DNA of 64,000 nucleotides, from assembly GCF_003730195.1 (NCBI RefSeq), contig NZ_QWGG01000008.1, forward strand, positions 1 to 64,000, read 5' to 3'. Within the stretch, counting starts at the first letter, position 1, and each line of letters begins with the position of its first letter. Positions 7,666 to 36,433 of this stretch are shown one piece after another. The notes below the pieces were generated by a model. It saw nothing but the letters and a program-made list of their open reading frames with translations. It did not search any database and was not told the DNA's origin. A program made the position numbers and the translations under genes. The DNA is from Halosimplex salinum (GTDB taxonomy: Archaea; Halobacteriota; Halobacteria; Halobacteriales; Haloarculaceae).

Positions 7666-8007
7666 CTACTCGACGCGCGGCGCGGCCTCGTCGGTGCGGC
7701 CCGGGAGTTCGAGTTCGATCTCGAGTTCGGGTTCGCCGACGCCGTCGAAGTCGACCTCCAGTCCGACGGGTTCGCCGAACGCGAACGGGAGTTCCCACTC
7801 GTCGGTCGAGATGGTGAGTTCGTCGCCCGCCTGCAGTTGCTCGCCGAGGTCGACGAGGAAGCGACCCGCCTCCGCGGCGTCGAGTCGGTACTCCTCCTCG
7901 TACGCGCGGCCGTTCCTGATCGTGGTGCGCTCGTCCTCGTGGTCGGTCGTGTCGTCCTCGGGGTCCGTCGATTCGTCCTCGGTCGACGGCGCGTCCGCGT
8001 CGCTCAT
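7666..8007 (-). CDS. amphi-Trp domain protein
   Basis: This 113-residue protein has an acidic disordered first third (STEDESTDPEDDTTDHEDER). The following domain, running from AYEEEYRLDAAEAGRFLVDL through TISTDEWELPFAFGEPVGLE to LEIELELPGR, matches the amphi-Trp family common in haloarchaea. The biochemical role of amphi-Trp proteins is not established. The gene is the second in a two-gene unit: its ATG at 8007 lies 2 nt after the stop of the small CxxC protein gene at 8010-8189. The pair sits behind an iron-box-like operator, so iron-responsive expression is inferred. Confidence 0.8.
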   Translation of the reverse strand: MSDADAPSTEDESTDPEDDTTDHEDERTTIRNGRAYEEEYRLDAAEAGRFLVDLGEQLQAGDELTISTDEWELPFAFGEPVGLEVDFDGVGEPELEIELELPGRTDEAAPRVE

Positions 8008-8009
8008 GG

Positions 8010-8189
8010 CTATCGGCGCACCTCCAGGGTCTCGTCGCTCGCGATCCATCCGTCCGTGTTCCCGGACTCGATGAAGACGGAGCGCCCGGGACAGCTCTCA
8101 CAGGCCGAGATAGCCGGCCGGTCGTCGGCGGTCGGCTCCGGGCCCGCGTCGGAATCGGCGTCGGTGTGTGACTGCGTGCCGGTGGTCAT
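8010..8189 (-). CDS. small CxxC protein (59 aa), first gene of iron-box operon
   Basis: This 59-residue frame reads MTTGTQSHTDADSD, then an acidic linker, ISACESCPGRSVFIES, GNTDGWIASDETLEVRR and stop. A C-x-x-C pair sits in the centre, and the WIASD ending resembles small haloarchaeal proteins of unknown role. It is supported as real by tight coupling to the amphi-Trp gene (2-nt gap), acidic composition, and a TATA-like TTTATCTTTT (minus strand, 8211-8220) about 28 nt upstream of the ATG. No function is assigned; the CxxC could bind metal or act in thiol chemistry. Confidence 0.65.
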   Translation of the reverse strand: MTTGTQSHTDADSDAGPEPTADDRPAISACESCPGRSVFIESGNTDGWIASDETLEVRR

Positions 8190-8197
8190 CGCGTGGG

Positions 8198-8213
8198 TTT
8201 AGGCAAACCTAAA
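8198..8213. promoter_or_regulatory. DtxR/SirR/Idr-type iron box
   Basis: TTTAGG-CAAA-CCTAAA forms an inverted repeat whose TTAGG...CCTAA arms match the consensus of DtxR-family metalloregulators, which include haloarchaeal Idr/SirR proteins. It overlaps the downstream edge of the TATA-like box of the small operon at 8189-7666 (minus strand). A metal-loaded repressor bound here would block transcription. The site is seen directly; iron control is inferred from the family. Confidence 0.6.
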
Positions 8214-8398
8214 AGATAAAGGGCACGGTTCGGGCGGGCCAGCGGAGCGACGGACGATTGCATCCGGGCGGTCCAGCTGCAACTGGCGGCCGTCGAGCAC
8301 TTGCTGACGTGCATCGGGTTGGCTCGAATGTAACGTCGGCTCGAACGCAACGCCGACCGCCGGAACGACTTTGACTCCGCCCGCCGACGGGTCCACGA

Positions 8399-9817
8399 AT
8401 GGCCCTCCGCGTCCTCCACTACGCCGACGTCGAGGCCGCTTACGACGACCCCGAACGCGTCGGGCGACTCGCCGGCCTGATCGACGAGTTGCGCGACGAC
8501 TCGACCGTCGTCACCGGCGGCGGCGACGACACCGGGCCGGGCGTCCTGTCGGTCGTGACCGAGGGGCGTCAGTCGCTCGACTTCTTCCGGAGCGTCGACC
8601 CGGACGCCGAGACGTTCGGCAACCACGACTTCGACCACGGGATCGACGCCTTGCTCTCGGTCGTCGCGGACTCCCCCCAGCCGTGGCTCTGCGCCAACGC
8701 GACGCGAGACGGCGACCCGTTCGCGGCCGCCCAGGGGGCGAGCCCGTGGACCGTCGTCGATGCGGGGGGACGTCGCGTCGGCCTCCTCGGGGTCGCCCAT
8801 CCCGAGACGGCCGAGATCAACCCGAACGCCGCACCGGTCGAGTTTACGGATCCCGTCCCGGCAGCGAGAACGGCCGTCGAGGCGCTTCGAGGTGAGGGCG
8901 TCGACCGGACGGTCGTCGTCTCGCATCTCGGCGACGACACGGACCTGGCCCGGGCCGTCGACGCGGACCTGATCCTCGGCGGCCACGACCACGAGCGTCG
9001 GGTCGACCGCGTCGACGGCACGCTCGTCTGTCGCCCCGGGGGAACGGGCCGATACCTCCTCGAGGTCTCCTTCGAGGGCGACCGCCCGACCGCGACGCAT
9101 CACGCGGTCGACGACACGTCGGTCGACAACGGGCCGGTCGCGACCGACGTCGCCGACGCGATCCGAGAGCGGATGGCGGCGACGGGACTCTCCGACGCGG
9201 TCGCGACCGCCGTCGATCCAGTACCTTGCGACATGCGCGCCTGCAAACGCGGCGAGAGCCGGATCGGGAACCTGATCACGGACGCACATCGGTGGAAAAC
9301 GGGCGCCGACGTGGCAGTCAACTCCGGCGGCGGGTTCCGTCGCCGCCCGCCGCTCGCGGGCGAAGTGACGGCCTTCGATCTGGTCAGCGTCGCGCCGTAC
9401 GCGGCCGATCTCTGCACCCTGCGGATCGACGGAGCGGCGCTGCTGGACACGCTCGGTGCCCTCGCGCTCGACTCGGCCCCGGACGACCTCCCGCGCTGGC
9501 ACTTCGGTCACGTGAGCGGCGCGAGCGTCGTCTGGGACGACGCGGCCGACGAACTCCGGGCGGCACGCGTCGACGGCGACCCCGTCGACCGGAACGCGAC
9601 CTACGAGGTCGCGACCACGCGCTTCTTCGTCGACAGCGACGCGCTCTTCCCGTCGCTCGACCCCGCGAACGTCGTCGAGCGCCACGGCCCGCAGTACGAG
9701 GCGGTCGTCGAGTACGTCCGTGACTGTGGCCTCGACCCGGAACTCGGCGACCGGATCCGCCGGCCCACGCTCGACCCGGCGGCCGTCCGGGATCGGGACT
9801 GGCCACACAGCCCGTGA
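8399..9817 (+). CDS. 5'-nucleotidase/UshA-like bifunctional metallophosphatase
   Basis: This 472-residue protein has an N-terminal calcineurin-like metallophosphatase domain with metal motifs HYADVEA (a D-x-H variant with Asp then Glu), the GGGDDTGPG loop, GNHDFDHG (residues about 75-82), SHLGDDTD and GGHDHER. The C-terminal 5'-nucleotidase domain contains NLITDAHRW, NSGGGFR and the SVAPYAADL substrate-stacking segment. UshA/CpdB relatives hydrolyse nucleotides or nucleotide sugars, usually outside the cell; no signal peptide is visible here, so it may be cytosolic. The first metal motif lacks the usual His (DVE instead of D-x-H), worth noting for activity. The start ATG at 8399 follows an intergenic region shared with the iron-box operon. 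Confidence 0.85.
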   Translation: MALRVLHYADVEAAYDDPERVGRLAGLIDELRDDSTVVTGGGDDTGPGVLSVVTEGRQSLDFFRSVDPDAETFGNHDFDHGIDALLSVVADSPQPWLCANATRDGDPFAAAQGASPWTVVDAGGRRVGLLGVAHPETAEINPNAAPVEFTDPVPAARTAVEALRGEGVDRTVVVSHLGDDTDLARAVDADLILGGHDHERRVDRVDGTLVCRPGGTGRYLLEVSFEGDRPTATHHAVDDTSVDNGPVATDVADAIRERMAATGLSDAVATAVDPVPCDMRACKRGESRIGNLITDAHRWKTGADVAVNSGGGFRRRPPLAGEVTAFDLVSVAPYAADLCTLRIDGAALLDTLGALALDSAPDDLPRWHFGHVSGASVVWDDAADELRAARVDGDPVDRNATYEVATTRFFVDSDALFPSLDPANVVERHGPQYEAVVEYVRDCGLDPELGDRIRRPTLDPAAVRDRDWPHSP

Positions 9818-11407: not shown

Positions 11408-12223
11408 ATGCCCACAGTTCAGACAGGCGAGATTGACACCTACTACGAGGTGAGCGGGAATGGCCCGCCTATCGTCTTCATACACGGCGCTCTATCCGAT
11501 CACTCAGCAGCAGCACAACAGCTGGAGGCATTCAGCGACAGATACACCGCAATTGCATACGATCTCCGAGGCCACGGCAACACCACAAACCCCCAGCACG
11601 CACCGTATTCAATCGACCTGCTGGCAGAAGACCTCCACCGGTTCATCACTGAGATGGGACTTGAACGTCCGGTTCTCTGTGGAGTCTCGATGGGTGGGAT
11701 GATCGCCCAAGTCTACGCAAGTCGCTATCCGGATCCACTCAGCGCCCTTGTGCTCGCCGACACCTTCTCCCCAGCGTTCCTCGGCCGGCGCGACCGCATC
11801 GAGCGATCCAGCCTGATGAATGCCATGGCTGGCCTCATTCGCCTTGTGGGATACAACCGTGCGAAGGGTCTCGTGTTGTGGTTCGGACGCAAACTGGAAC
11901 GGAATCAGACCACAAGTCTCCGTCCCCACGCTTTCCCTGATATGGATACCACGGACGCCGTGAATGCCCTCAAGGCAGTCGCCGGCTTCCACACTACCGA
12001 CATTGACCTTACCTCAATCACCGTCCCGACACTCATCCTCTACGGCGAACACGAAACCTCTATAATCAGCCGTCACGCTCCGACTCTATCCGCACAAATC
12101 CCCGACGCAACTATCCAAGAAGTCCCCGACGCAGGCCACGCATCCCCCTGGGATAATCCCGAGTTCTTCAACAGCACAATTCAAACGTTCATCTCCAGCC
12201 AGACACCACTCAAGACAGAATAG
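11408..12223 (+). CDS. alpha/beta-hydrolase fold protein
   Basis: This 271-residue protein has the oxyanion HG motif (IVFIHGALSD, residues 22-31), YDLRGHGNT, the nucleophile elbow GVSMGG with Ser94, and a terminal DAGHAS with the catalytic His near residue 244. The expected acid lies in the ILYGEHET strand, where the usual Asp may be Glu or shifted. The family includes esterases, haloperoxidase-like enzymes and lactonases; the substrate is unknown and the protein is predicted cytosolic. GC content and codon choice are visibly lower in GC than flanking core genes (for example frequent ACA and CCA), suggesting transfer together with its neighbours. Confidence 0.85.
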   Translation: MPTVQTGEIDTYYEVSGNGPPIVFIHGALSDHSAAAQQLEAFSDRYTAIAYDLRGHGNTTNPQHAPYSIDLLAEDLHRFITEMGLERPVLCGVSMGGMIAQVYASRYPDPLSALVLADTFSPAFLGRRDRIERSSLMNAMAGLIRLVGYNRAKGLVLWFGRKLERNQTTSLRPHAFPDMDTTDAVNALKAVAGFHTTDIDLTSITVPTLILYGEHETSIISRHAPTLSAQIPDATIQEVPDAGHASPWDNPEFFNSTIQTFISSQTPLKTE

Positions 12224-18249: not shown

Positions 18250-19065
18250 CTACTCCTCGGCGGCGTCGACGACCTCGTAGCTGACGTTCTGGTCCCGGAG
18301 TTTGTCCGTGTGCGTCGACAGCGCGTCCGTCGCGGAGAGCAGGAGTACGTCGAGTCCCTTCGTCGCGGCTTCCTGAACGGCGGCGGGGCTCCCGAACCTG
18401 ATGTCCGGGTCGAGGTCCGCGGCGTCCGCCGCGGCGACGGCCTCGACGCCGGCGACCGCGAGCAGGTCGTGTGCGTCGGCGAGGTCGGCGACCCGCTCGG
18501 CGTCGACGACGGCGCTCCCGCCGTTCTGGACCTGCGGGACCGAGACGGCCGTCACCGTCCCCAGATCGTAGTCGACGACTCCCTCGAAGTTCGTGATCCC
18601 GACGTCTCGCCCGGCCTCGGCGTCGGTCACGGCGACCGCGGTCGCGCTTCCCGTGTCGCCGGCCATCGCCCTGAGCACGCCGTCGCGCATCGTCAGCGAG
18701 ACGGTCTCGCCCTCGGCGACGTCGGTGGTCGCGATCGCGGTCTCGATCTCGACCTGCCCGATGACGTCCTCGGAGACGTGTCGGACGAAGGTGCGTAGCT
18801 CGTCGGTCTGCGAGATGAGCCAGTCGACGCCCTCCTTCGTGACCTCGTAGCGGCCGCGGCCGTGCTTGTCGACGTACCCCTGCCCGACGAGGTCCTGGAG
18901 GTAGTCGCTCACGGCCTGTGCGGTGATCCCGATCGCGTCGGCGATCTCCTGCTGGTTCACCGCCGGCTGTCGCTCCGCGATCTCGACCAGGATCTGATAC
19001 CGCGTCGCGTTCCGCTTGCTCCGAAGGACACCGAACCTGTCGGCGTCGTCCGCGTCGTTCGCCAT
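18250..19065 (-). CDS. winged-HTH transcriptional regulator beside the cobalamin operon
   Basis: This 271-residue protein has residues 10-75 forming a winged HTH (YQILVEIAERQPAVNQQEIA, then ITAQAVSDYLQDLVGQGYVD). A C-terminal ~190-residue domain contains repeated Asp/Ala-rich strands (AVAVTDAEAGRDVGITNFEG, LDPDIRFGSPAAVQEAA) that could bind a small molecule. It is transcribed divergently from cbiT with shared promoter DNA at 19066-19213 carrying the motif ACACCAAWKT on each side. Control of the cobalamin genes, perhaps with a corrinoid or cobalt effector, is inferred from this position. The start at 19065 excludes an upstream extension crossing the promoter. Confidence 0.75.
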   Translation of the reverse strand: MANDADDADRFGVLRSKRNATRYQILVEIAERQPAVNQQEIADAIGITAQAVSDYLQDLVGQGYVDKHGRGRYEVTKEGVDWLISQTDELRTFVRHVSEDVIGQVEIETAIATTDVAEGETVSLTMRDGVLRAMAGDTGSATAVAVTDAEAGRDVGITNFEGVVDYDLGTVTAVSVPQVQNGGSAVVDAERVADLADAHDLLAVAGVEAVAAADAADLDPDIRFGSPAAVQEAATKGLDVLLLSATDALSTHTDKLRDQNVSYEVVDAAEE

Positions 19066-19165: not shown

Positions 19166-19189
19166 CTAAAACAACCAAAATTGTTTTAG
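19166..19189. promoter_or_regulatory. perfect 9-bp inverted repeat upstream of cbiT
   Basis: CTAAAACAA and TTGTTTTAG are separated by 6 nt (CCAAAA), lying 25-48 nt before the cbiT ATG, just downstream of the TATA-like element. The position suits an operator that blocks transcription start. It could also be a short hairpin in the leader, but the AT-only arms favour protein binding. Confidence 0.55.
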
Positions 19190-19213
19190 GGACTACGGGA
19201 GTTGTGTTCGACC

Positions 19214-19804
19214 ATGGTCTCGCTCCCTCGCGACGCGAAGGCCGGTCCGACGAAGCCGGAGGTCAGGGCCGTCCTGCAGTGGAAACTCGCGCTCGACCCG
19301 TCCGACCACTTCGCGGAGGTCGGTTCCTGTACCGGCGCGGTCACGGTCGAGGCGGCCCGACGCGCGGGTCGCGTCACCGCGCTCGAACGGAAGCCCGACC
19401 GACTGGCGGTCACGGAGCACAACCTCGCCGCGAACGAGACGACCGCGGACGTCGAACTCCGGGCGGCAGAAGCCCCGGAGGGACTCCCCCCGGACGCGGA
19501 CGCGCTCTTCCTCGGCGGCAGTCGCAACTACGAGGCGGTGCTCGACCACGCGGTCGAGACCGGCGTCGACCGGGTCGTCATGAACGTCTCGCGACTGGAA
19601 GTCGCTGGCGCGGCGACCGAGGCGTTCCGCGAACGTGACCTGCTCGACGACGTGATCCAGTTCCAGGTGAGTCGCGGCTACGAACTCGCCGGCGCGACGA
19701 GTTTCGACTCGGACAACCCGGTGTACATGCTCGTCGGCGGCGTCGACGGGGGCGCGAATTCGACGGGCGGTGCAGACGCCGCGACCGACGGAGGGCGACG
19801 GTGA
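19214..19804 (+). CDS. cbiT: cobalt-precorrin-6B/7 C15-methyltransferase, decarboxylating subunit CbiT
   Basis: This 196-residue SAM methyltransferase has motif I AEVGSCTGAVTVEAARR (about residues 35-51), preceded by the CbiT-typical AGPTKPEVRAVLQWKLAL. DALFLGGSRNY and VVMNVSRLE complete the family pattern. In the cobalamin pathway CbiT methylates C15 and decarboxylates the C12 acetate of the corrin ring, usually together with CbiE, which is not encoded in this window. It is the first gene of the long cbi operon; its TGA overlaps the GTG of cbiL (GGTGA). Confidence 0.85.
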   Translation: MVSLPRDAKAGPTKPEVRAVLQWKLALDPSDHFAEVGSCTGAVTVEAARRAGRVTALERKPDRLAVTEHNLAANETTADVELRAAEAPEGLPPDADALFLGGSRNYEAVLDHAVETGVDRVVMNVSRLEVAGAATEAFRERDLLDDVIQFQVSRGYELAGATSFDSDNPVYMLVGGVDGGANSTGGADAATDGGRR

Positions 19805-20670
19805 CCCTCTACGGCGTCGGGCTCGGTCCCGGCGACGCGGACCTGGTGACGGTCCGCGGCAAGGCGGTCCTGCAAGACGCCGACGTGGTGTACTCGCCCG
19901 GTCGCCTCTCCCGCTCGGTCGCCACCGAACACGTGCCCGCGGAGCGGATCGGGGATCTGGACTTCCCGATGACCCGCGACGAGGACGAACTCCGGCGGGC
20001 GTGGAAGGCGGCCGCGAGCGAGATCGCGCCGCGGGCCCGCGAGGGCACGGCCGCGTTCGTCACGCTCGGCGACCCGAACGTCTACTCGACGTTCGGCCAC
20101 CTGCGGCGGACGCTCGACGCCTTCCACCCCGAGGTCGACGTGGAGACGGTCCCCGGCGTGAGCGCCGTGACCGCGTTCACGACGGCGCTGGGCGTCGAGG
20201 TCGCCGCCGGGTCGACGCTGGCGCTCCGCGAGGCCGCTCGCGGGACGGCCCCGACCGGCCCGGATCGGATGGTCCTGTTCAAGGTCACCGACGCGCCCGC
20301 AACCCACGAGAAACTCGTCGACGCCGGCTACGACGTGGTGTACGGCCGACGCCTCTACATGGAGCAGGGCGAGACGGTCGTGACGGACGACCCCGGGGCG
20401 CTCGCCGACCGCGACTACTACACGCTCGCCTACGCGGAGCGAGACGACGTGGACGCGACGCCGGCGACAGCGACGTTCGCGGAGACCGAGGACGACGGCG
20501 AATCGAGTACCGAACGGCTCCGCACCGACGGCGGCGTGAACGACGGCGACCAGCCGAAATCGGGCCACGCTCGGGACGACGACCCGACGACCGAGCGCGA
20601 GCGCGAGCGTCTGGAACGCGCCGAGGGCGAGGCCTGCGGCGACGAGTTTCCCGGGGCGGTCGGCCGATGA
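19801..20670 (+). CDS. cbiL: cobalt-factor II C20-methyltransferase CbiL
   Basis: This tetrapyrrole methylase has the N-terminal glycine loop YGVGLGPGDADLVTVRG (residues 4-20), ALVTLGDPNVYSTFGH-type SAM motif (AFVTLGDPNVYSTF) and VETVPGVSAVTAF. It methylates C20 of cobalt-factor II. The last ~55 residues are an acidic extension (TEDDGESSTERLR, then DDDPTTERERERLER) beyond the normal fold. GTG is the start, overlapping the cbiT stop by 4 nt; the stop overlaps the cbiF ATG (ATGA). No alternative downstream ATG would keep the glycine loop. Confidence 0.87.
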   Translation: MTLYGVGLGPGDADLVTVRGKAVLQDADVVYSPGRLSRSVATEHVPAERIGDLDFPMTRDEDELRRAWKAAASEIAPRAREGTAAFVTLGDPNVYSTFGHLRRTLDAFHPEVDVETVPGVSAVTAFTTALGVEVAAGSTLALREAARGTAPTGPDRMVLFKVTDAPATHEKLVDAGYDVVYGRRLYMEQGETVVTDDPGALADRDYYTLAYAERDDVDATPATATFAETEDDGESSTERLRTDGGVNDGDQPKSGHARDDDPTTERERERLERAEGEACGDEFPGAVGR

Positions 20671-21542
20671 CCGACCCGCAGGACGCCATCGACGCCGAGA
20701 CGGCCCAATGGGCGACCGAACGCGACCCTCGCGTCGCGGAACACACTGCCGGCGAGGTGCAGGAGGGAATCCCATTCGTCGGCGCCGGGCCCGGCGATCC
20801 CGGACTGCTGACCGTCACCGGGAAGGAACTCGTCGAGGCCGCCGACCTCGTCGTCCACGCGGGGTCGCTGGTCAACAGCGACCTCCTGACGGAGTACTGC
20901 GCCGACGCCGAGCAGGTGTCGAGCATCGGCAAGGACCTCGAGGAACTCGTCCCGCTGCTGCGTGACGCCTACGAGAGCGGACGCGAGGTCGTCCGCCTGC
21001 ACAGCGGCGACCCCGCCGTCTACGGTGCGGCCGTCGAGCAGATGGACGCGCTCGAACACGAGGGCGTTCCCACCTATATCGTCCCGGGCGTCACCTCGGC
21101 GTTCGCCGCGAGCGCGACGCTGCGGACCCAGTTGACCCTCAACGGCGTCGCTAACCACGTCGCGTTCACCCGTCCGCAGGGGAAGACGCTCGACCCCGAG
21201 TCGGACCACGTCGGCGAGTTCGTCGAGATGGGCGACGTGACCACCTGTCTCTACCTCGGTACCCACGCCGTCGCCGAGACGATGGACCGCCTCGTCGACG
21301 ACGGACACGACCCCGACACGCCGGTCGCGGTCGTCTATCACGCTTCCTGGCCGGACGAGGACGTGATCGAGGGGACCATCGAAACCATCGGCGAGCGAGT
21401 CGCGGACGCGGGCTACCGCGCGTCGGCGATGGTCGTGATCGGCGACGCCGCCCGCAAGGCCGGCTACGAGCGCTCCTACCTGTACGGCGGGTTCGCGAAC
21501 GGGGAGCGTCCGGACGATTCCCAGCAGGAGGCGGACGACTGA
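20667..21542 (+). CDS. cbiF: cobalt-precorrin-4 C11-methyltransferase CbiF
   Basis: This 291-residue tetrapyrrole methylase has IPFVGAGPGDPGLLTVTGKE (about residues 34-53), VVHAGSLVN (CbiF-type), RLHSGDPAVYGA and the PGVTSAFAASATL loop. CbiF/CobM methylates C11 of cobalt-precorrin-4. An acidic 30-residue N-terminal lead precedes the catalytic domain, as is usual in halophiles. It overlaps the upstream gene by 4 nt and is followed after 2 nt by cbiG. Confidence 0.9.
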   Translation: MTDPQDAIDAETAQWATERDPRVAEHTAGEVQEGIPFVGAGPGDPGLLTVTGKELVEAADLVVHAGSLVNSDLLTEYCADAEQVSSIGKDLEELVPLLRDAYESGREVVRLHSGDPAVYGAAVEQMDALEHEGVPTYIVPGVTSAFAASATLRTQLTLNGVANHVAFTRPQGKTLDPESDHVGEFVEMGDVTTCLYLGTHAVAETMDRLVDDGHDPDTPVAVVYHASWPDEDVIEGTIETIGERVADAGYRASAMVVIGDAARKAGYERSYLYGGFANGERPDDSQQEADD

Positions 21543-21544
21543 CA

Positions 21545-22555
21545 ATGAGTACGGATACAGACGACACCGATACGACGGAGACGGACGACGCATCGGACGG
21601 CTCGAACGACTCCGGCGGCCACTGTTCCACGCCCGACTCGGACGGGGAAGTGGCCGAGGAGATCGCGATCGTTTCCTTCGAGCGAAAGTGGGAGACCGCG
21701 CGGGAGATCGAGGCCGAACTCGGCGACCGCTACGAGTCGATCGACCTCGTCGAGTACCACGGCGAGGTGTTCGCGGAGCGCTGGGGCGAGTACGACTGCT
21801 TCGTCGGGCTGATGGCCTCGGGGATCGCGATGCGCAAGACCGCACCCCTGCTGGACGACAAGTGGGACGACCCCGCCATCGTCGTCGTCGACGAGGAACT
21901 GACGTGGGCCATCCCCATCACCGGCGGCCACCACGGCGCCAACCAGGTCGCACACGACCTCTCGCGACTCGGCGCGGTCCCGGCGATGACGACGGCGAGC
22001 GAGGCGGCCGGGAAACAGGGCGTCGAGAGCAAGGCCAAAGCCCTGGACACCCACGTCGTCAACGGCGACTCCACCGTCGCGACGAACCTCGCCGTCCTGA
22101 ACGACGAACTCGGACCGGTCGCCCGTCTCGACGGCCCGCGTGCCGTCCTCGTCGGCGACGACGTCACAGTACTGAGACGCAACGCCGAGGAGGGCGTCGT
22201 CCTCGGGACCGGCACCGTCTCCGGCGTCGACGCCGACCAGGTCGTCGACGCGTGGGAGCAAGCCCTCGCCGACCTCGACCTGACCGTCGACGACGTGGAC
22301 TTCGTCGCGACCGGGACCAGAAAGGAGGGCGAGGAGGGCCTCTACGAGGCCGCCGAGTCCATCGGCGCCGGGGTCGTCCTCTTCGAGAAGGAGACGCTGG
22401 AGCGCTTCGAGGGTCCCTCGCCGTCGCGCTCGAAGGAACTCATCGGCTGGCCGGGCATCGCGGAGGCGTCGGCCATCGCCGGCGGGCGCGAGCACGACCT
22501 CGCCCGCGAGAAGGAGCGCTTCGACGACGCCGTCACCGTCGCGGTGGGGCGGTAG
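21545..22555 (+). CDS. cbiG: cobalt-precorrin-5A hydrolase CbiG
   Basis: This 336-residue protein has an acidic N-terminus (about 40 residues), then the CbiG N and core regions: EEIAIVSFERKWETAREIEA, a DCFVGLMASGIAMRKTAPLL motif, and DEELTWAIPITGGHHGANQV. The C-terminal domain includes FVATGTRKEGEEGLYEAAES and SKELIGWPGIAEASAI. CbiG opens the delta-lactone ring and releases acetaldehyde during ring contraction. It starts 2 nt after the cbiF stop and is followed after 1 nt by the first cbiH. Confidence 0.9.
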   Translation: MSTDTDDTDTTETDDASDGSNDSGGHCSTPDSDGEVAEEIAIVSFERKWETAREIEAELGDRYESIDLVEYHGEVFAERWGEYDCFVGLMASGIAMRKTAPLLDDKWDDPAIVVVDEELTWAIPITGGHHGANQVAHDLSRLGAVPAMTTASEAAGKQGVESKAKALDTHVVNGDSTVATNLAVLNDELGPVARLDGPRAVLVGDDVTVLRRNAEEGVVLGTGTVSGVDADQVVDAWEQALADLDLTVDDVDFVATGTRKEGEEGLYEAAESIGAGVVLFEKETLERFEGPSPSRSKELIGWPGIAEASAIAGGREHDLAREKERFDDAVTVAVGR

Positions 22556-22556
22556 G

Positions 22557-23498
22557 ATGGCCGAGGCCGACACCAGCCACACCAGCGACGGCGACGACGC
22601 GATGGGCACCCTCTACGTCGTCGGGATCGGGCCGGGACTGCCCCACGCGATGACCCAGCGCGCCGTCGAGGTCGTCTCGACCGCCGACTGCGTCGTCGCG
22701 TCGAACCTCTACCAGGAGTTCCTCCGGCGCGACGGGACGCTGCCCCCGGAGAGCGCCGAAGTGGCGGCGGCCGACGCCGCGACCGACGGCGGCCCCGCGA
22801 CCGACGACGGTGCAACGGCCTGGTCCGAGTCCGGGACCGTCCTCGAACGGCCCAACGGCACCAGGCAGACCCTCGTCCGCTCGTCGATGGGGCGACAGGT
22901 CGAACTCGCCAGGGAGGCGTTCGAGCGAGTCCGCGCCGGCCAGACCGTCGCGCACGTCTCCGGCGGCGACCCGAACGTCTACGGCAAGAGCGATCTGCTG
23001 TTCACGATGGCCGAGGAGGAGGGAGCCGAGGACGTGCCCATCGAGGTGATACCGGGCGTCACCGCGGCGCTCGGCGGCGCGGCGAACCTCGGCGCGCCGC
23101 TCTCGAACGACTTCTGCACCGTCTCGCTCTCGGACAAGTGGCGCGGCTGGGACGAGATCGAGGAGAAGCTCCGGGCGGCCGCGATCTCGGGGTTCGTGAT
23201 CGTCCTCTACAACTGCTGGCGCGACTACGAGCGCGCGATCGAGGTGATCCGCGAGGAGCGGGCCGACGACGTTCCGGTGGGGATCTTCAACGACGCCGGC
23301 CGCGGCGACGCCGGCCGGAATCTCGACGACGAGACCCACACGATCACCACCCTCGGCGAGGCGACCGAGTACGACGAGGACGTCGGCGGGATGGGCACCT
23401 CCATCCTCGTCGGGAACCACGAGACTGCGGTCTGGGAGAACGACCACGGCGAACACCTCGTCACCCCGCGCGGCGGGCGTGACGTCGACGATTTCTGA
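22557..23498 (+). CDS. precorrin-3B C17-methyltransferase-family CbiH, copy 1
   Basis: This 313-residue tetrapyrrole methylase has LYVVGIGPGLPHAMTQRAVE (about residues 18-37), AHVSGGDPNVYGKSDLLF and VIPGVTAALGGAANLGAPLS. The family makes the C17 methylation and ring contraction. An Ala/Asp-rich insertion of ~45 residues (about 65-110) separates the first two motifs. A second CbiH-like enzyme follows immediately; haloarchaea often carry this pair, but which one contracts the ring is not resolved from sequence. Its start is 1 nt after cbiG. Confidence 0.83.
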   Translation: MAEADTSHTSDGDDAMGTLYVVGIGPGLPHAMTQRAVEVVSTADCVVASNLYQEFLRRDGTLPPESAEVAAADAATDGGPATDDGATAWSESGTVLERPNGTRQTLVRSSMGRQVELAREAFERVRAGQTVAHVSGGDPNVYGKSDLLFTMAEEEGAEDVPIEVIPGVTAALGGAANLGAPLSNDFCTVSLSDKWRGWDEIEEKLRAAAISGFVIVLYNCWRDYERAIEVIREERADDVPVGIFNDAGRGDAGRNLDDETHTITTLGEATEYDEDVGGMGTSILVGNHETAVWENDHGEHLVTPRGGRDVDDF

Positions 23499-23500
23499 CC

Positions 23501-24454
23501 ATGAGTACGGACGACACTACTGACACGACGGACACCACGACGGAAGCGAGCACAGACGCGGAATCGACCTGCGGCGGCGCTTCGAACGCCGACGCCGGCA
23601 CGGCGTCGTCCTGCGGCGCCTCGACTGACGACGCTTCGACCGACGAGAACGTCGGCGCGAGCGTCGGCGACTTCGACGCCGACCCCGGCCGACTCGTCGC
23701 GGTCGGCCTCGGTCCCGGCCAACCGGAGGGGATGACCCAGCGCGCCCGCGGCGCGCTGCTGGACGCCGACCACATCGTCGGCTACACGACCTACGTCGAC
23801 CTCCTGCCCGAGGACGTCCGCGAGGACGCCGAGGAACTGTACGACACGCCGATGTGCGGCGAAGTCTCGCGCACCGAGGAGGCCATCGACCGCGCGCTCG
23901 CGGGTCACGACGTGGCGATCGTCGGGAGCGGCGACCCGAACGTCTACGCGCTGGCGGGACTCACACTGGAGATTCTCGAGTCGAAGGGCGCGACGGCGTC
24001 GATGGTCGAGTTCGACGTGGTGCCGGGCGTCCCGGCCGCCCAGTCCTGCGGCGCTCGGCTCGGCGCGCCACTGGTGAACGACACTGTCAGCATCTCGCTA
24101 TCCGACCACCTCACGGACATGCCGACGATCGAGTCGCGCCTCCACGCCGCCGCGAAAGAGGGGTTCACGATCTCGATCTACAACCCCTGGAGCCGCAAAC
24201 GCCGCGAGAACTTCCAGAAGTGCTGCGAGATCCTCGAAGAACACCGCGACGCCGACACCCCCGTCGGGGTCGTTCACGGCGCCGGCCGCGAGGACGAGGC
24301 GGTCGAGATCGTCGAACTCGCGGACCTCGCGGACCTCGGCGAGACAGACCTGGTCGACATGACGACGACGCTCATCGTCGGCAACGCGGAGACGTACGTC
24401 TGGGACGACCGGATGGTCACGCCGCGGGGCTACGAGTCGAAGTATGACTACTGA
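23501..24454 (+). CDS. precorrin-3B C17-methyltransferase-family CbiH, copy 2
   Basis: This 317-residue protein has a Thr/Ser/Asp-rich N-terminal ~60 residues with three cysteines (CGGAS, SCGAS), then VAVGLGPGQPEGMTQRARGA, AIVGSGDPNVYALAG, VVPGVPAAQSCGARLGAPLV and YNPWSRKRRENFQ. The NPWSRKR segment is typical of CbiH/CobJ. It begins 2 nt after copy 1 and overlaps the ferredoxin gene by 11 nt. Compared with copy 1 it lacks the internal insertion. The cysteines in the disordered arm could bind a metal or cluster; that is speculation. Confidence 0.85.
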   Translation: MSTDDTTDTTDTTTEASTDAESTCGGASNADAGTASSCGASTDDASTDENVGASVGDFDADPGRLVAVGLGPGQPEGMTQRARGALLDADHIVGYTTYVDLLPEDVREDAEELYDTPMCGEVSRTEEAIDRALAGHDVAIVGSGDPNVYALAGLTLEILESKGATASMVEFDVVPGVPAAQSCGARLGAPLVNDTVSISLSDHLTDMPTIESRLHAAAKEGFTISIYNPWSRKRRENFQKCCEILEEHRDADTPVGVVHGAGREDEAVEIVELADLADLGETDLVDMTTTLIVGNAETYVWDDRMVTPRGYESKYDY

Positions 24455-24701
24455 GTACCGCGTCCGCCTCGACAGGGCGGCCTGCGACGGCGTCTTCGCC
24501 TGCCTCGTCCGCGACGACCGGTTCGTCGAGGCCGACGACGGCTTCGCGACGTTCGACGGGGCGGTCGAGCGCGAGTGCGACGGCGAGTCCGCCGGTGCGC
24601 TCGTCGCCACCGTCGACGACGACCGACTGGCCGACGCCCAGCAGGCCGCGAGCGCCTGTCCGCTCGACGCCATCGACGTGACGGTGGTCGACGATGCGTG
24701 A
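24444..24701 (+). CDS. small ferredoxin, probably [3Fe-4S]-type
   Basis: This 85-residue protein has DRAACDGVFACLVRDDRF near the start and ACPLDAI at the end, the pattern of short Fe-S ferredoxins. Only three cluster cysteines are visible (C14, C20 and the CP near residue 73); a fourth is absent, which favours a [3Fe-4S] cluster. It is probably the electron donor for a reductive step in corrin synthesis. Its ATG lies within the end of the second cbiH (11-nt overlap), so the two are translationally coupled. Confidence 0.75.
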   Translation: MTTEYRVRLDRAACDGVFACLVRDDRFVEADDGFATFDGAVERECDGESAGALVATVDDDRLADAQQAASACPLDAIDVTVVDDA

Positions 24702-25392
24702 GACCGACCACTCGACGCCCGACGCCGCAGAGGACCTGCTCGCGGCGACGCCGGCGACCGCGTACTTCTGGGGCCGGGTCGCGGGCGACGGGGAACTCGT
24801 CGAGCACTGCGTGACCGTCCGGGCCGGCGACGAGCGGGCGGCCGACGCGCTGGCGGCAGTCGCCGGCGCGAACCGGAGAGCTCACCGCGTCGCGGCCCGC
24901 GAGTCGGCCCACGACGCGTCGATCGTCCGCTACGAGGACGAGTACGAACTCCGGGTGCTGGGCGCGCCCGCGGAGCGCGCCAGCGCGGCGCTCGGTCTCC
25001 CGCTGGACGGCCAGCCCGGCGGCTACCGCTTCGACGCCTTCGCCGACCACCGCGCGCCGCTCCTCCGCGGCCTCCTCGAAGCCTGCGGCACCGTCTGCTT
25101 CCGCGAGTCCGCGGGCTCGGTCGGCGTCTCGTTCGTCCACGACGACGAGCGCCTGCTCGAGACGACCCGGTCGCTGCTCGCCGACGCAGAGCCCCACGCC
25201 CCAACGGACGACCTCTCGGAGACGTCCTCGGGCGGCTACTGGTTCGGGCTGGCCGACGAGGCGGATACGGCCGGGTTCGCGGACTGGGTGTACGACGGGA
25301 GCGAGGACTCGGGGCTGTACGCCGGCGACCGACGGCGGAAACTCCGGCGGAGCGTCGAGCGCGCGACCGGGACGGCGGTGGGAGAGCTGTGA
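24694..25392 (+). CDS. cobalamin-cluster protein with two LAGLIDADG-like motifs
   Basis: This 232-residue protein overlaps the ferredoxin by 8 nt and the cbiX GTG by 4 nt, so it belongs to the operon. Two segments look like LAGLIDADG homing-endonuclease helices: YFWGRVAGDGELVEHCVTVR (residues 24-43) and LLRGLLEACGTVCFRESAGS (123-142). Each is followed by beta-strand and helix, as in the saddle fold. A C-terminal GLYAGDRRRKLRRSVE resembles the basic helix of such proteins. In the second motif the catalytic acid position is Cys (EACG). Haloarchaeal homologues are labelled cobalamin biosynthesis proteins by context only. A DNA- or RNA-binding regulatory role or a re-purposed fold is inference. 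Confidence 0.65.
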   Translation: MRETDHSTPDAAEDLLAATPATAYFWGRVAGDGELVEHCVTVRAGDERAADALAAVAGANRRAHRVAARESAHDASIVRYEDEYELRVLGAPAERASAALGLPLDGQPGGYRFDAFADHRAPLLRGLLEACGTVCFRESAGSVGVSFVHDDERLLETTRSLLADAEPHAPTDDLSETSSGGYWFGLADEADTAGFADWVYDGSEDSGLYAGDRRRKLRRSVERATGTAVGEL

Positions 25393-26612
25393 CCGCCACC
25401 CAGTCCGCGCCCGCCGGTCTGGACGACGAGGCGGTCCTGCTCGTCGGCCACGGCTCGCGCCGCGAGAAGTCCAACGAACAGGTCCGCACGCTCGCCGCCG
25501 ACCTCGAGGACCGACTCGGCGTCCCCGTCGACGCGGGCTTCCTCGAACTCGCCGAACCGGCCATCCCGGAGGCCATCGCGGGACTCGCGACCGTCGTCTC
25601 GCGGGTCTCGGTCGTCCAGCTATCGCTGTTCGCCGCCAGCCACGTCAAGACCGACGTGCCGCTGGCGGTCGAGCAGGCCCGCGCCGACCACGAGGGGACG
25701 ACCATCCACAGCGGCGCGCATCTGGGCGTCCACCCGGCCATCGTGGACCTGCTCGACGACCGGGCGGCCGCCGTCGAGGCGTCGCTGGGCGTCGACCGCG
25801 AGTCCGACGACGTTGCGGTCGTCCTCTGTGCCCGCGGGTCGTCTGACCCCGACGCCAACGGCGACGCGCACAAACTCGCGCGACTGCTCTACGAGGGCCG
25901 GGCGTTCGACCGCGTCGAGGCGAGCTTCGTCGGCGTCACGGAACCGGTCCTCGAGGAGACGCTGCACACCGTCGCGAAGGGGCGGCCCGACGCCGTCGTC
26001 GTCCTCCCGTACATGCTCGGTGACGGCGTCCTGACGGGACGGATCCGCGACGGAACTGACGAGTTCGACGCGGAGTACCCGTACGTCGACGCGGCGGCGG
26101 GCGACCCGCTCGGGACGGACGCTCGACTGCTCGACGTGCTCGGCGACCGCTGGCAGGCGGCCCGCACGGACAGCGTCGACATGTCCTGTGACACGTGCAA
26201 GTACAAGGTCGAACTCGACGGCTACGAGGCGGACGTGGGCGGCGCCCGCGCGATGTTGCGGGCGCTGACTCATCGGGCGGAACACGCCGACCGCGAGGAC
26301 GTGGACGACGACCCGCACGGCCACGACGCGCCGGAGAAACACGTCGCGGTCTGCACGAACCAGACCTGCGCGGCCGACGGCGCCCCCGCCGTCCTCGAAC
26401 GCCTGCGGCAGGCCGCCCGCGACTCGGAGGCCTGCGACGCTCGCATCACCCGCTCGTCCTGCCTCGGTCGCTGTGGCGAGGGGCCGATGGTCGCCGTCTA
26501 CCCCGACGGCGTCTGGTACGGCGGCGTCGCGGCCGACGACGCCGACCGCATCGTCTCCTCGCACCTCGACCGCGACCGAATCGTCTCCGACATCGTCGAC
26601 CAGACGCTCTGA
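25389..26612 (+). CDS. cbiX: sirohydrochlorin cobaltochelatase CbiX with C-terminal 2Fe-2S domain
   Basis: This 407-residue protein has two CbiX-type halves. The first has LLVGHGSRREKSN (His21) and SLFAASHVKTDVP with the second metal-binding His. The second half (VVLCARGSSDPDAN, VVLPYMLGDG) lacks a GHG His. From ~275 a Cys/Asp-rich linker leads to a thioredoxin-like [2Fe-2S] domain with CTNQTCAADG and SSCLGRCGEGP. CbiX inserts Co2+ into sirohydrochlorin as the entry to the anaerobic pathway, and the fused cluster is characteristic of haloarchaea. GTG start overlaps the previous stop. A CDTC motif lies in the linker (about residues 265-270). Confidence 0.9.
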   Translation: MTATQSAPAGLDDEAVLLVGHGSRREKSNEQVRTLAADLEDRLGVPVDAGFLELAEPAIPEAIAGLATVVSRVSVVQLSLFAASHVKTDVPLAVEQARADHEGTTIHSGAHLGVHPAIVDLLDDRAAAVEASLGVDRESDDVAVVLCARGSSDPDANGDAHKLARLLYEGRAFDRVEASFVGVTEPVLEETLHTVAKGRPDAVVVLPYMLGDGVLTGRIRDGTDEFDAEYPYVDAAAGDPLGTDARLLDVLGDRWQAARTDSVDMSCDTCKYKVELDGYEADVGGARAMLRALTHRAEHADREDVDDDPHGHDAPEKHVAVCTNQTCAADGAPAVLERLRQAARDSEACDARITRSSCLGRCGEGPMVAVYPDGVWYGGVAADDADRIVSSHLDRDRIVSDIVDQTL

Positions 26613-26649
26613 ATCGCGAATATCGACGCCATACACCCAATCCACGCCA

Positions 26650-27021
26650 ATGAGCTGCTACGAACTCGAAGCCCTACGACTCGGACTGATGAACGTCCTC
26701 GGCACGGACGACGACCACGCCCGCGAACACGCGGAGCAGGAACTGGAGGGCCGTCGCGACGGCCCGATCGGCGCGCTCGCCGACGCGGAGACGCTCTCGG
26801 CGGTCGAACGCCACCTCGACGCCGCGCTCGTCGACCTGGAAGAGACGGTCGCCGCGACCGACGCCGACGACCCCGAGTACGACTACCTGCGCGGGCGACT
26901 CGTCGCGGTCCGCGACGCGGAACGGGCCGTCCACCGACTCACGGCGCAGGGCGAGAGCGTCCGCGACGGGCTCGGCGAGGCGCACGACGTGCTTCACGAG
27001 GCGTTCCCGGTGGAGGACTGA
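26650..27021 (+). CDS. DUF3209 family protein
   Basis: This 123-residue all-helical acidic protein begins MSCYELEALRLGLMNVLG and carries HAREHAEQEL and LVDLEETVAATDADDPEYDY helices. DUF3209 proteins are found in haloarchaeal cobalamin clusters beside cbiX; the biochemical role is unknown. The ATG at 26650 lies 37 bp after the cbiX stop, so it is likely the last gene of the operon. Cys3 is the only cysteine. Confidence 0.75.
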   Translation: MSCYELEALRLGLMNVLGTDDDHAREHAEQELEGRRDGPIGALADAETLSAVERHLDAALVDLEETVAATDADDPEYDYLRGRLVAVRDAERAVHRLTAQGESVRDGLGEAHDVLHEAFPVED

Positions 27022-27182: not shown

Positions 27183-27542
27183 TCAGTCGCTGCCAGTCGC
27201 CGGCGCGTCGCTGCCGACGTTCAGCCGATCCGCGTCCGGTCCGAACTCCCCCTCCAGGAGCGCAGGGACGTCCCCGGGACGAACGTCGGAGTACCACCGG
27301 CCGCGCGGGTGAATCGCGACGGCGGTCCCGTCGGCGCTACAGAGGCCGAGACAGCTCGTCTCGGCGACGTGGACGCGCGACCAGAACACGTCCCGCTCGC
27401 GGAGCCACGCCGTCACCTCATCGTATACGTCGTCACACTGCGTATCCGCACAGGCGGCGTACTCGGAGTCGCGGTCGTTCGTACACACCAGCACGTGGTC
27501 GGTGAAGCCGCGTTCGCGGACCTCCTCGGTTCGGTCGCGCAT
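27183..27542 (-). CDS. thioredoxin-like [2Fe-2S] ferredoxin
   Basis: This 119-residue protein has HVLVCTNDRDSEYAACADTQ and ETSCLGLCSADG, the four-cysteine layout of the shared CbiX C-terminal domain (thioredoxin-like 2Fe-2S). AVAIHPRGRWYSDV also aligns with VAVYPDGVWYGGV of CbiX. It overlaps cbtA by 1 nt and follows cbtB-cbtA, so it may serve cobalt uptake or insertion. The C-terminal ~20 residues are a polar tail. Confidence 0.8.
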   Translation of the reverse strand: MRDRTEEVRERGFTDHVLVCTNDRDSEYAACADTQCDDVYDEVTAWLRERDVFWSRVHVAETSCLGLCSADGTAVAIHPRGRWYSDVRPGDVPALLEGEFGPDADRLNVGSDAPATGSD

Positions 27543-28342
27543 CAGTCCGCCGTCACCGCCGAGTCGATCTGGTCCGCGTCGACCGGACTCCCCCGCTCCG
27601 CCGTCGCGCGGCGGTGGAGCCGCGCGTATGTCGCCGCGAGGACGGTCCAGAGGAGAACCTGTCCGAGGACGACCAGCCCGACGAGACCAGTAGCCAGCCC
27701 TGACGGCAAGGAGTGCGTCACCGCGGTCGACGGCGAGAGCGCGACCGGCACGGAGAGGAGGCCGAACGGAGTCAGCGCCGCGGCTCCGGCGACGATTCGT
27801 CCCAGGTCCGCATGGAGTCGGCCGTACACGGCCCCGGCGAGCAGACAGACCAGTGCACCGAGGAGCACCATTCCGGCGTAGAGCGGGAGTCTCGTCTCTG
27901 CGGGGAGCGCCTGCTCGACCCCCGGCGGCTGTGGCGGGAACACGAGCCACGGCGCCCCGGAGACGGAGACGAAGCCGGCGGCGGCGAGAACGTAGCTCTT
28001 GCTCGTGCCGGTGCCCGGGATCGCCGGCTCCAGGAAGTAGAACCCGGCACCGAAGACGACGGCACCCAGAAGGACGCCCCAGAGGACGCCGGAGACGACG
28101 CTCACGCCGTTCGTGACCGCCGCCGAGACGGCGGGACCCTCGTGGGAACCGCTCGTCGTCCCGTCGTGATGGCCGTCGGTGTCGGCCTCGCGGTGGTCGC
28201 CAGTCGCTCGCGTCTCCCCCTCGTGACCGAACTCGTCCGCGAACGCGACGAGGGGGTTGGCGACGAGCGCGACGAGCAGGCCGAACGCGAGGCCGGCGAC
28301 CAGCCCGGCTTTCACCCCCCGCGTCACGTAGTCGACGAGCAT
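27542..28342 (-). CDS. cbtA: CbtA, predicted cobalt transporter subunit
   Basis: This 266-residue membrane protein has about five to six TM segments. A His-rich loop lies near residues 51-70 (GDHREADTDGHHDGTTSGSH), and hydrophobic runs lie at 8-30, 80-105, 115-135, 150-170, 178-200 and 215-240. CbtA and the small CbtB form a cobalt uptake unit predicted from genomic context in bacteria and archaea. The external histidine loop suits Co2+ capture. It starts 2 bp after cbtB and shares a base with the downstream ferredoxin. Confidence 0.82.
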   Translation of the reverse strand: MLVDYVTRGVKAGLVAGLAFGLLVALVANPLVAFADEFGHEGETRATGDHREADTDGHHDGTTSGSHEGPAVSAAVTNGVSVVSGVLWGVLLGAVVFGAGFYFLEPAIPGTGTSKSYVLAAAGFVSVSGAPWLVFPPQPPGVEQALPAETRLPLYAGMVLLGALVCLLAGAVYGRLHADLGRIVAGAAALTPFGLLSVPVALSPSTAVTHSLPSGLATGLVGLVVLGQVLLWTVLAATYARLHRRATAERGSPVDADQIDSAVTAD

Positions 28343-35641: not shown

Positions 35642-36433
35642 ATGACGACGGAGACGGTCCTGCTCGTCGGTCGCGAGCGGCGAAACGGGCGCGCGGTGTT
35701 ACGGACCCACGCCGAGCGGCTCCGCGAGCGGGGACTCGCGGACCGGGTCGCCGTCGCGACCTACGAGCGCGACCCGGCGATCGAGCTGTCCGAGCAGTTC
35801 GCGGAGATGACGGCCGACACGGTGTACGCCGTTCCGATGTGTGCCGCCCACTCGCACGAGACGACGGAGGCGGTCCCGAGCGCGCTCGCGTCCCTAACCG
35901 GTGGCGTTCGGTACTGTGACCCCGTGGGCGCGAGCCCGGCGGTCACCGACGTCATCGAGGAACGCGGCGCGGACCTCGTGGCGGGGGACGAGGACGTATC
36001 GCTCGTGCTGGTCGGGTTCGGGAGCAGTTCGAAACCGTACCACCGACGGACGGTCGACTATCACGCGACTCGCCTCCGCGAGCGGACCGACTACGGCGAG
36101 GTCGTCACCTGCTATCTCCTGCAGAATCCGGCGGTGGAATGCGTCAGGTACAACGTCTCCAACGACTCGGCCGTCGCCGTCCCGCTCTTCCTGACGCGGA
36201 CCGAAGCCACCGAGGAACGGGTGCCCGCGGAGCTCGAACTCGACCGCGGCGGGATGGCGTACGCCGACCCCTTCGGCACGCACCCGCGAGTCACCGACGC
36301 CGTGTCCGCCGAGGTAGAGAAACAGCGCGCACTCGCGTCGGCGGGCGGCGCGGGGTCCGTTTCCGTCGACGCGACTCCGGGCGGGCCCCCTCGGCCCGTC
36401 GCGACGGACGGCGACGGCGGCCGGCGTCGCTGA
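35642..36433 (+). CDS. CbiX-like protein with degenerate metal site
   Basis: This 263-residue protein has two CbiX-fold halves: TVLLVGRERRNGRAVLRTH and VSLVLVGFGSSSKPYHRRTV. In both, the GHG catalytic histidine of CbiX is replaced (GRE, GFG); only the second-site His in VPMCAAHSHETTEAVP remains. Other marks are YVEVVTCYLLQNPAVE-like VVTCYLLQNPAVECVRYNV and a Gly/Pro/Asp-rich tail. It may hold or deliver cobalt rather than insert it, or act as a pathway regulator; both are inference. It stands alone behind its own promoter with the ACACCAA box. Confidence 0.7.
   Translation: MTTETVLLVGRERRNGRAVLRTHAERLRERGLADRVAVATYERDPAIELSEQFAEMTADTVYAVPMCAAHSHETTEAVPSALASLTGGVRYCDPVGASPAVTDVIEERGADLVAGDEDVSLVLVGFGSSSKPYHRRTVDYHATRLRERTDYGEVVTCYLLQNPAVECVRYNVSNDSAVAVPLFLTRTEATEERVPAELELDRGGMAYADPFGTHPRVTDAVSAEVEKQRALASAGGAGSVSVDATPGGPPRPVATDGDGGRRR

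Follow-up and report, generated by a model that had tools for sequence, protein, structure and literature searches.

Gene X, embedded in the cobalamin (B12) biosynthesis cluster of Halosimplex salinum, is predicted to encode a non-catalytic protein of the LAGLIDADG fold, and its occurrence in haloarchaea follows that of cbiG almost one to one. Tentatively, X is envisaged here as an accessory to the cobaltochelatase CbiX, with cobalt, a corrinoid or a redox partner as its ligand.

The gene lies in a window of 64,000 nucleotides (the whole stretch of DNA that was analysed, to which all coordinates refer unless a locus is named), where its open reading frame was found exactly at 24694-25392 on the forward strand and codes for 232 amino acids. 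Its start overlaps by 8 nt the 3' end of the gene for the single-cluster ferredoxin fdx1 (Fer4_15 by Pfam; 24444-24701, forward), while its TGA stop codon runs into cbiX (25389-26612, forward), which starts with GTG at 25389 and whose product combines an MxCxxC motif with a C-terminal thioredoxin-like [2Fe-2S] ferredoxin domain. Both overlaps are seen in the sequence, as expected from the initial annotation, which had described X as a tightly overlapped operon member between a ferredoxin and cbiX. The full gene order is cbiT-cbiL-cbiF-cbiG-cbiH1-cbiH2-fdx1-X-cbiX-DUF3209, with the core operon spanning 19202-24454 on the forward strand (starts at 19202 for cbiT, 19801 for cbiL, 20664 for cbiF, 21545 for cbiG, 22557 for cbiH1 and 23501 for cbiH2) and the helical DUF3209 protein encoded at 26650-27021 on the same strand (Pfam match obtained on the longer open reading frame 26473-27021). 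The Pfam score of cbiT is weak, and the gene was named from its similarity and from the conservation of its place. Antiparallel to the operon, a CbtA-like cobalt transporter gene was observed at 27183-28342 on the reverse strand, with a ferredoxin-like open reading frame directly downstream of it.

The AlphaFold2 model of X, computed from a 24-sequence alignment, showed a mean pLDDT of 87.5 and a pTM of 0.87, and consists of two alpha-beta-beta-alpha-beta-beta-alpha repeats packed via their motif helices, the LAGLIDADG order being thus predicted twice. The first repeat comprises helices at residues 20-32, 47-57 and 92-100, and the second one helices at 113-131, 152-163 and 192-200 followed by a further helix at 211-225, with strand pairs in between. 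The features to which the initial annotation had called attention were all found, namely the motif FWGRVAGDG (residues 25-33) at the first LAGLIDADG-like helix (20-32; 24751-24789, forward), the motif LLRGLLEACG (123-132), whose LLRGLLEAC closes the second such helix (113-131; 25030-25086, forward), and a basic C-terminal helix (residues 209-225; 25318-25368, forward).

In Foldseek comparisons the best 29 PDB matches of the model, down to E = 0.04, were all LAGLIDADG proteins, and the first unrelated entry appeared only at E = 0.23. I-Tsp061I (2dch, E = 1.9e-6) was the best match, and WhiA (3hyj, E = 2.8e-5; 8dy7, E = 1.2e-3), I-DmoI, PI-SceI, the bI3 maturase and I-SceI were also among the hits. 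Viral structure matches, with TM-scores up to 0.70, were mostly homing endonucleases and intein-bearing proteins, and motif helices, hairpins and the site at which the acid is replaced all coincide with the LAGLIDADG fold. Global TM-scores versus PDB entries ranged from 0.4 to 0.5, which points to X as a distant or distorted member of this group. Regarding sequence comparisons, Pfam and NCBIfam scans of X gave no match at E <= 1, LAGLIDADG and HTH models included, a PDB sequence-profile search produced just a chance lectin match, hhalign against the LAGLIDADG region of one haloarchaeal intein aligned the right motif region without reaching significance, the internal repeat was likewise not significant by hhalign, and plasmid and phage searches for more LAGLIDADG comparators returned too few useful ones. 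The fold claim therefore derives from structure prediction rather than from sequence profiles. Since the predicted structure contains the LAGLIDADG topology, in two repeats, and its top 29 matches belong to one superfamily, the modelling supports the fold that the earlier reading had proposed for X.

An alignment of 120 unique X sequences, with some columns counted over 117 or 119 of them, indicated that the second repeat is the most strongly constrained part of the family. The initial annotation had noted a Cys in place of the second catalytic acid, and this residue proved to be a family trait, Cys131 being found in 117/120 sequences and Ala or Ser, never an acid, in the rest. On the contrary, D32 at the first acid position, whose conservation was queried together with that of C131, is kept in just 70/117 sequences and is otherwise mostly replaced by Ser, Gly or Asn. 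In addition, Cys135 (codon at 25096-25098, forward), placed on the first strand beyond the second helix, is invariant, as are R125, G126, E129, G132, G144 and S146 (all 120/120). H73 is found in 118/119, a Lys or Arg at position 137 in 119/120, and R213 and K216 of the basic C-terminal helix in 119/119. This helix carries a mean net charge of +3.7 over the family and is the only clearly basic element considered, whereas the saddle strands are, on average, neutral or acidic. Residues 135 and 137 would face the saddle interior if the I-CreI numbering is transferred to X. The absence of a catalytic acid pair supports the X family not being a nuclease, and, judging from the alignment, its old active site appears devoid of catalysis yet not free to drift. 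Regarding individual sequences, the X of genome G298 (locus L066, gene near 7815-8504) contains a short tandem duplication (ITRTEDEYTLSI twice), and in that of G066 (L062) a SNAT repeat insert separates the two LAGLIDADG repeats.

Among 391 haloarchaeal genomes, X homologues were detected in 204 and CbiG_N in 210. When the lists were compared by hand, 202 genomes had both, eight had CbiG only (G043, G045, G060, G094, G296, G342, G341 and G383) and two had X only (G340 and G363, the contig of the latter beginning at X), so X is near one-to-one with cbiG in haloarchaea. A motif match by chance, which would have undermined the earlier reading, is at odds with homologues in more than half of these genomes and with the predicted topology, and the presence of X in 202/210 cbiG-bearing genomes with conserved synteny agrees with its description as a domesticated, fixed operon member. 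A phylum sample of 295 genomes gave 24 X matches, all from the same order, and viral contigs contained no X homologue. A scan with CbiG added 80 named loci, 73 with X and seven without it. X, fdx1, a CbiX with the [2Fe-2S] tail and DUF3209 were found together in 71/71 uncut X-bearing clusters, the remaining two being cut by a contig end. As for the seven named loci in which X is missing, a contig end truncates four of them, and in another (L157) the cluster is scattered over separate places of its contig. The other two, from a Halodesulfurarchaeum MAG and from Halorhabdus amylolytica, are genuinely lean clusters. A divergent X of about 35% identity was located outside the B12 cluster in G044 (L060:6448-9454), in a row of co-directional genes that also includes a rhodanese-like gene and two cation-efflux (CDF)-like genes (named by eye). 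The dCTP deaminase gene of the same genome (L060:11362-13440) is split by an insert that resembles an intein and includes a LAGLIDADG-like stretch.

The lean clusters of G043, G045, G060, Halodesulfurarchaeum and Halorhabdus consist of cbiT-L-F-G-H1-H2-cbiX and jointly lack fdx1, X, the CbiX ferredoxin tail and DUF3209, fdx1 being missing wherever the whole module is; in G341 and G383 cbiX too is absent from its usual place. Their CbiG sequences form one clade (support 91/86) that spans several families, so that the simultaneous lack of all module parts counts as little more than a single evolutionary event, and the distribution of this lineage across families suggests horizontal transfer. A lean cbi lineage with a His-tailed CbiX (L080, L081, L082, L086, L087 and L173) is common to Halodesulfurarchaeum, Halorhabdus and others. 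The module is missing in four genomes without heme-copper oxidase (G043, G045, G060 and the Halodesulfurarchaeum MAG), three of which retain cytochrome bd. Strict anaerobiosis was considered as an explanation and discarded, because Halorhabdus and genus g95 also lack the module and have a heme-copper oxidase. Considering these oxidase-bearing exceptions, the cytochrome bd and the single lean clade, the link to oxygen is only suggestive.

The tail of CbiX differs between both kinds of cluster. Its [2Fe-2S] motif was present in 88/89 X-bearing loci, where His makes up at most 7% of the tail, and in the exception, L062, the ferredoxin tail is present at 80% identity. On the contrary, all seven X-less loci with a CbiX include a His-rich form of it, with His making up 21-28% of the tail. 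For large CbiX proteins, a role of the His-rich region in storing and delivering metal has been suggested, this region being dispensable for chelation (PMC7689651). Genome G094, placed by its CbiG among the X-bearing lineages, has lost X while retaining fdx1, the long CbiX and DUF3209. The site of X, between fdx1 and the long cbiX, is exactly where this genome encodes an additional, His-tailed CbiX (L083:11703-12641). This paralogue does not cluster with the CbiX proteins of lean clusters, and, as X alone was lost, this single case ties X itself, beyond the module, to the His tail.

Regarding the other module members, DUF3209 shows invariant C3, E5, E7, H27, H55, H112 and H116, residues that could bind a metal. 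The family is unnamed in the literature searched, and a relative has been solved, TTHB059 of Thermus thermophilus (2ehw). In Thermus, DUF3209 lies directly 3' of a CbiX with a similar Cys-rich ferredoxin-like tail as judged by sequence, and it likewise follows a CbiX gene in Leptospira. The Thermus region with CbiX and DUF3209 showed no X. The pair as such thus does without X, and, the pair being more widespread than X, fdx1 and X appear as the haloarchaeal additions.

The initial annotation had also considered a WhiA-like regulator. A 24-bp palindrome, CTAAAACAACCAAAATTGTTTTAG, lies upstream of cbiT at 19166-19189, reading CTAAAACAA-CCAAAA-TTGTTTTAG, with its core obtained by motif search and its arms read from the sequence. 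De novo motif search recovered ACAA-N6-TTGTTTT upstream of cbiT in 97/97 clusters, 88/88 X-bearing and 9/9 X-less. Divergent from the operon, a winged-helix protein with MarR_2 and DUF7839 domains is encoded at 18253-19059 on the reverse strand; it is likely the reader of this operator and a candidate B12 repressor, a relative of its gene being present within 36/97 X-bearing loci and 0/9 X-less ones. Weaker operator copies were seen at 12222, 28553 and 35593, the last one just upstream of a second CbiX-like gene at 35642, and a GTTGT element between operator and cbiT (19192-19208) occurs in 31/88 X-bearing and 0/9 X-less clusters. Since the operator does not vanish where X is absent, X is not needed to explain it and was rejected as its reader. 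These data, together with the non-basic saddle strands, weaken the proposal of a WhiA-like regulator of the cbi operon and suggest that X is not the operon's switch. It is possible, though rather doubtful, that X is a nucleic-acid-binding regulator, WhiA-like in spirit, whose saddle would sit on DNA or mRNA and whose Cys131 and Cys135 would sense redox state, cobalt or a corrinoid, perhaps via the ferredoxin. The known members of the fold bind nucleic acids, WhiA itself is among the matches, the basic C-terminal helix has its invariant R213 and K216, and K/R137 belongs to the strand that follows the second helix; against this stand the operator in X-less clusters, the separate winged-helix regulator, the charge of the saddle and the lack of a WhiA-type HTH. 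X acting on RNA or on genes outside the cbi operon is possible.

The other suggestion made for X was that of a new fold for an enzyme of corrin chemistry. CbiD and CbiJ were absent from 16/16 haloarchaeal genomes tested, with or without X, in line with reports describing haloarchaea without both proteins (PMC8305020, PMC6719526), and four unassigned cluster genes, HVO_B0055 of Haloferax volcanii included, are put forward in PMC8305020 as gap fillers. X performing the CbiD (EC 2.1.1.195) or CbiJ (EC 1.3.1.106) step with ferredoxin as electron donor would accommodate these two orphan steps, that proposal and the invariant Cys, Glu and Arg and conserved His of X, but is improbable considering that G043, G045, G060 and G094 keep the core pathway while lacking X, CbiD and CbiJ. 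The proposal of X as a missing CbiD or CbiJ loses weight, because genomes without X show these gaps as well. To our knowledge, no enzyme of small-molecule metabolism has a LAGLIDADG fold. X as the missing enzyme on its own is unlikely, which modifies the suggestion made for the cluster genes in PMC8305020, and a non-catalytic accessory role fits better. A resemblance to LAGLIDADG proteins by chance topology, with X an unrelated alpha/beta fold, would agree with TM-scores of just 0.4-0.5, the missing profile-level match and the non-significant internal repeat, but is very improbable when 29/29 top PDB matches fall in one superfamily ahead of the first unrelated one, viral LAGLIDADG-type proteins reach a TM of 0.70, and motif helices, hairpins and replaced acid coincide. 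Finally, a homing endonuclease still or recently mobile that landed in the operon would account for the fold only; lacking the acid pair, any viral homologue and an intein or intron context, and fixed in nearly all clusters, X is hardly conceivable as such an element, which its conservation pattern refutes in practice.

The tentatively preferred accessory role would be reached as follows. An ancestral LAGLIDADG protein would have lost both catalytic acids and become fixed as an accessory part of the cobalt-early B12 pathway of haloarchaea. In the predicted structure, Cys131 and Cys135 are at one old active-site position with the conserved K/R137 adjacent, and the groove may bind cobalt, a cobalt-corrinoid or a redox partner instead of cutting DNA. 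In this role, X would cooperate with two partners, the ferredoxin encoded by the overlapping gene and CbiX, whose ferredoxin tail takes the position occupied by a His-rich tail in lean clusters, and together they would either deliver cobalt to the chelatase or hold cobalt and early intermediates in the right redox state. Considering (i) the predicted fold and the catalytic loss accompanied by invariant cysteines, (ii) the linkage to cbiG, the CbiX tail pattern and the exchange in G094, and (iii) the proposal for the His region (PMC7689651), the CDF-like neighbours in G044 and the non-basic saddle strands, the accessory role has several points in its favour. On the other side, the lean clusters are close to one event and G094 is a single case, the CbiX/DUF3209 pair exists without X in Thermus, and known LAGLIDADG proteins bind nucleic acid, with X retaining a basic C-terminal helix. 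That the fold was repurposed from nucleic-acid cleavage to a metal- or corrinoid-binding accessory via the Cys pair at its former active site is a conceivable, still more tentative proposition. Mutual exclusion with the His-rich CbiX tail provides circumstantial grounds for X as a candidate Co(II) metallochaperone of the chelatase.

When compared with known systems, X shares predicted helix and strand order, motif-helix positions and size with I-Tsp061I (2dch) and I-DmoI (2vs8), two-repeat archaeal homing endonucleases, but, unlike them, it lacks the catalytic acid pair, with Cys at the second acid position, and is a stand-alone protein fixed in a metabolic operon, with no intron or intein. 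WhiA (DUF199; 3hyj, 8dy7) resembles X in combining a LAGLIDADG fold and a lost nuclease function with the status of a stable host gene. Nonetheless, WhiA is bacterial and has a C-terminal HTH, whereas X ends after its second repeat without one, is part of a biosynthetic operon and contains an invariant Cys pair. The C-terminal extension of large CbiX proteins of the Bacillus megaterium type, with a 4Fe-4S centre and a His-rich region, may be a functional counterpart of X, an analogy drawn from the His-tailed CbiX of X-less clusters between non-homologous elements. Judged by gene order, HVO_B0055 is the X orthologue of Haloferax volcanii (cbiH2 - HVO_B0056 - HVO_B0055 - cbiX1), an order repeated in other Haloferax clusters; the main text of PMC8305020 lists it as 'function unassigned' and a gap-filler candidate and notes no fold.

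A fold and testable residues are now given for one of the few unassigned genes of haloarchaeal B12 clusters, and the question of how B12 is synthesized without CbiD and CbiJ is narrowed, X being argued not to be the missing enzyme. Haloferax volcanii being genetically tractable, the question of X is directly addressable there. If binding of cobalt or corrinoid were true, X would be unusual among proteins with a homing-endonuclease fold in having moved away from nucleic acids.
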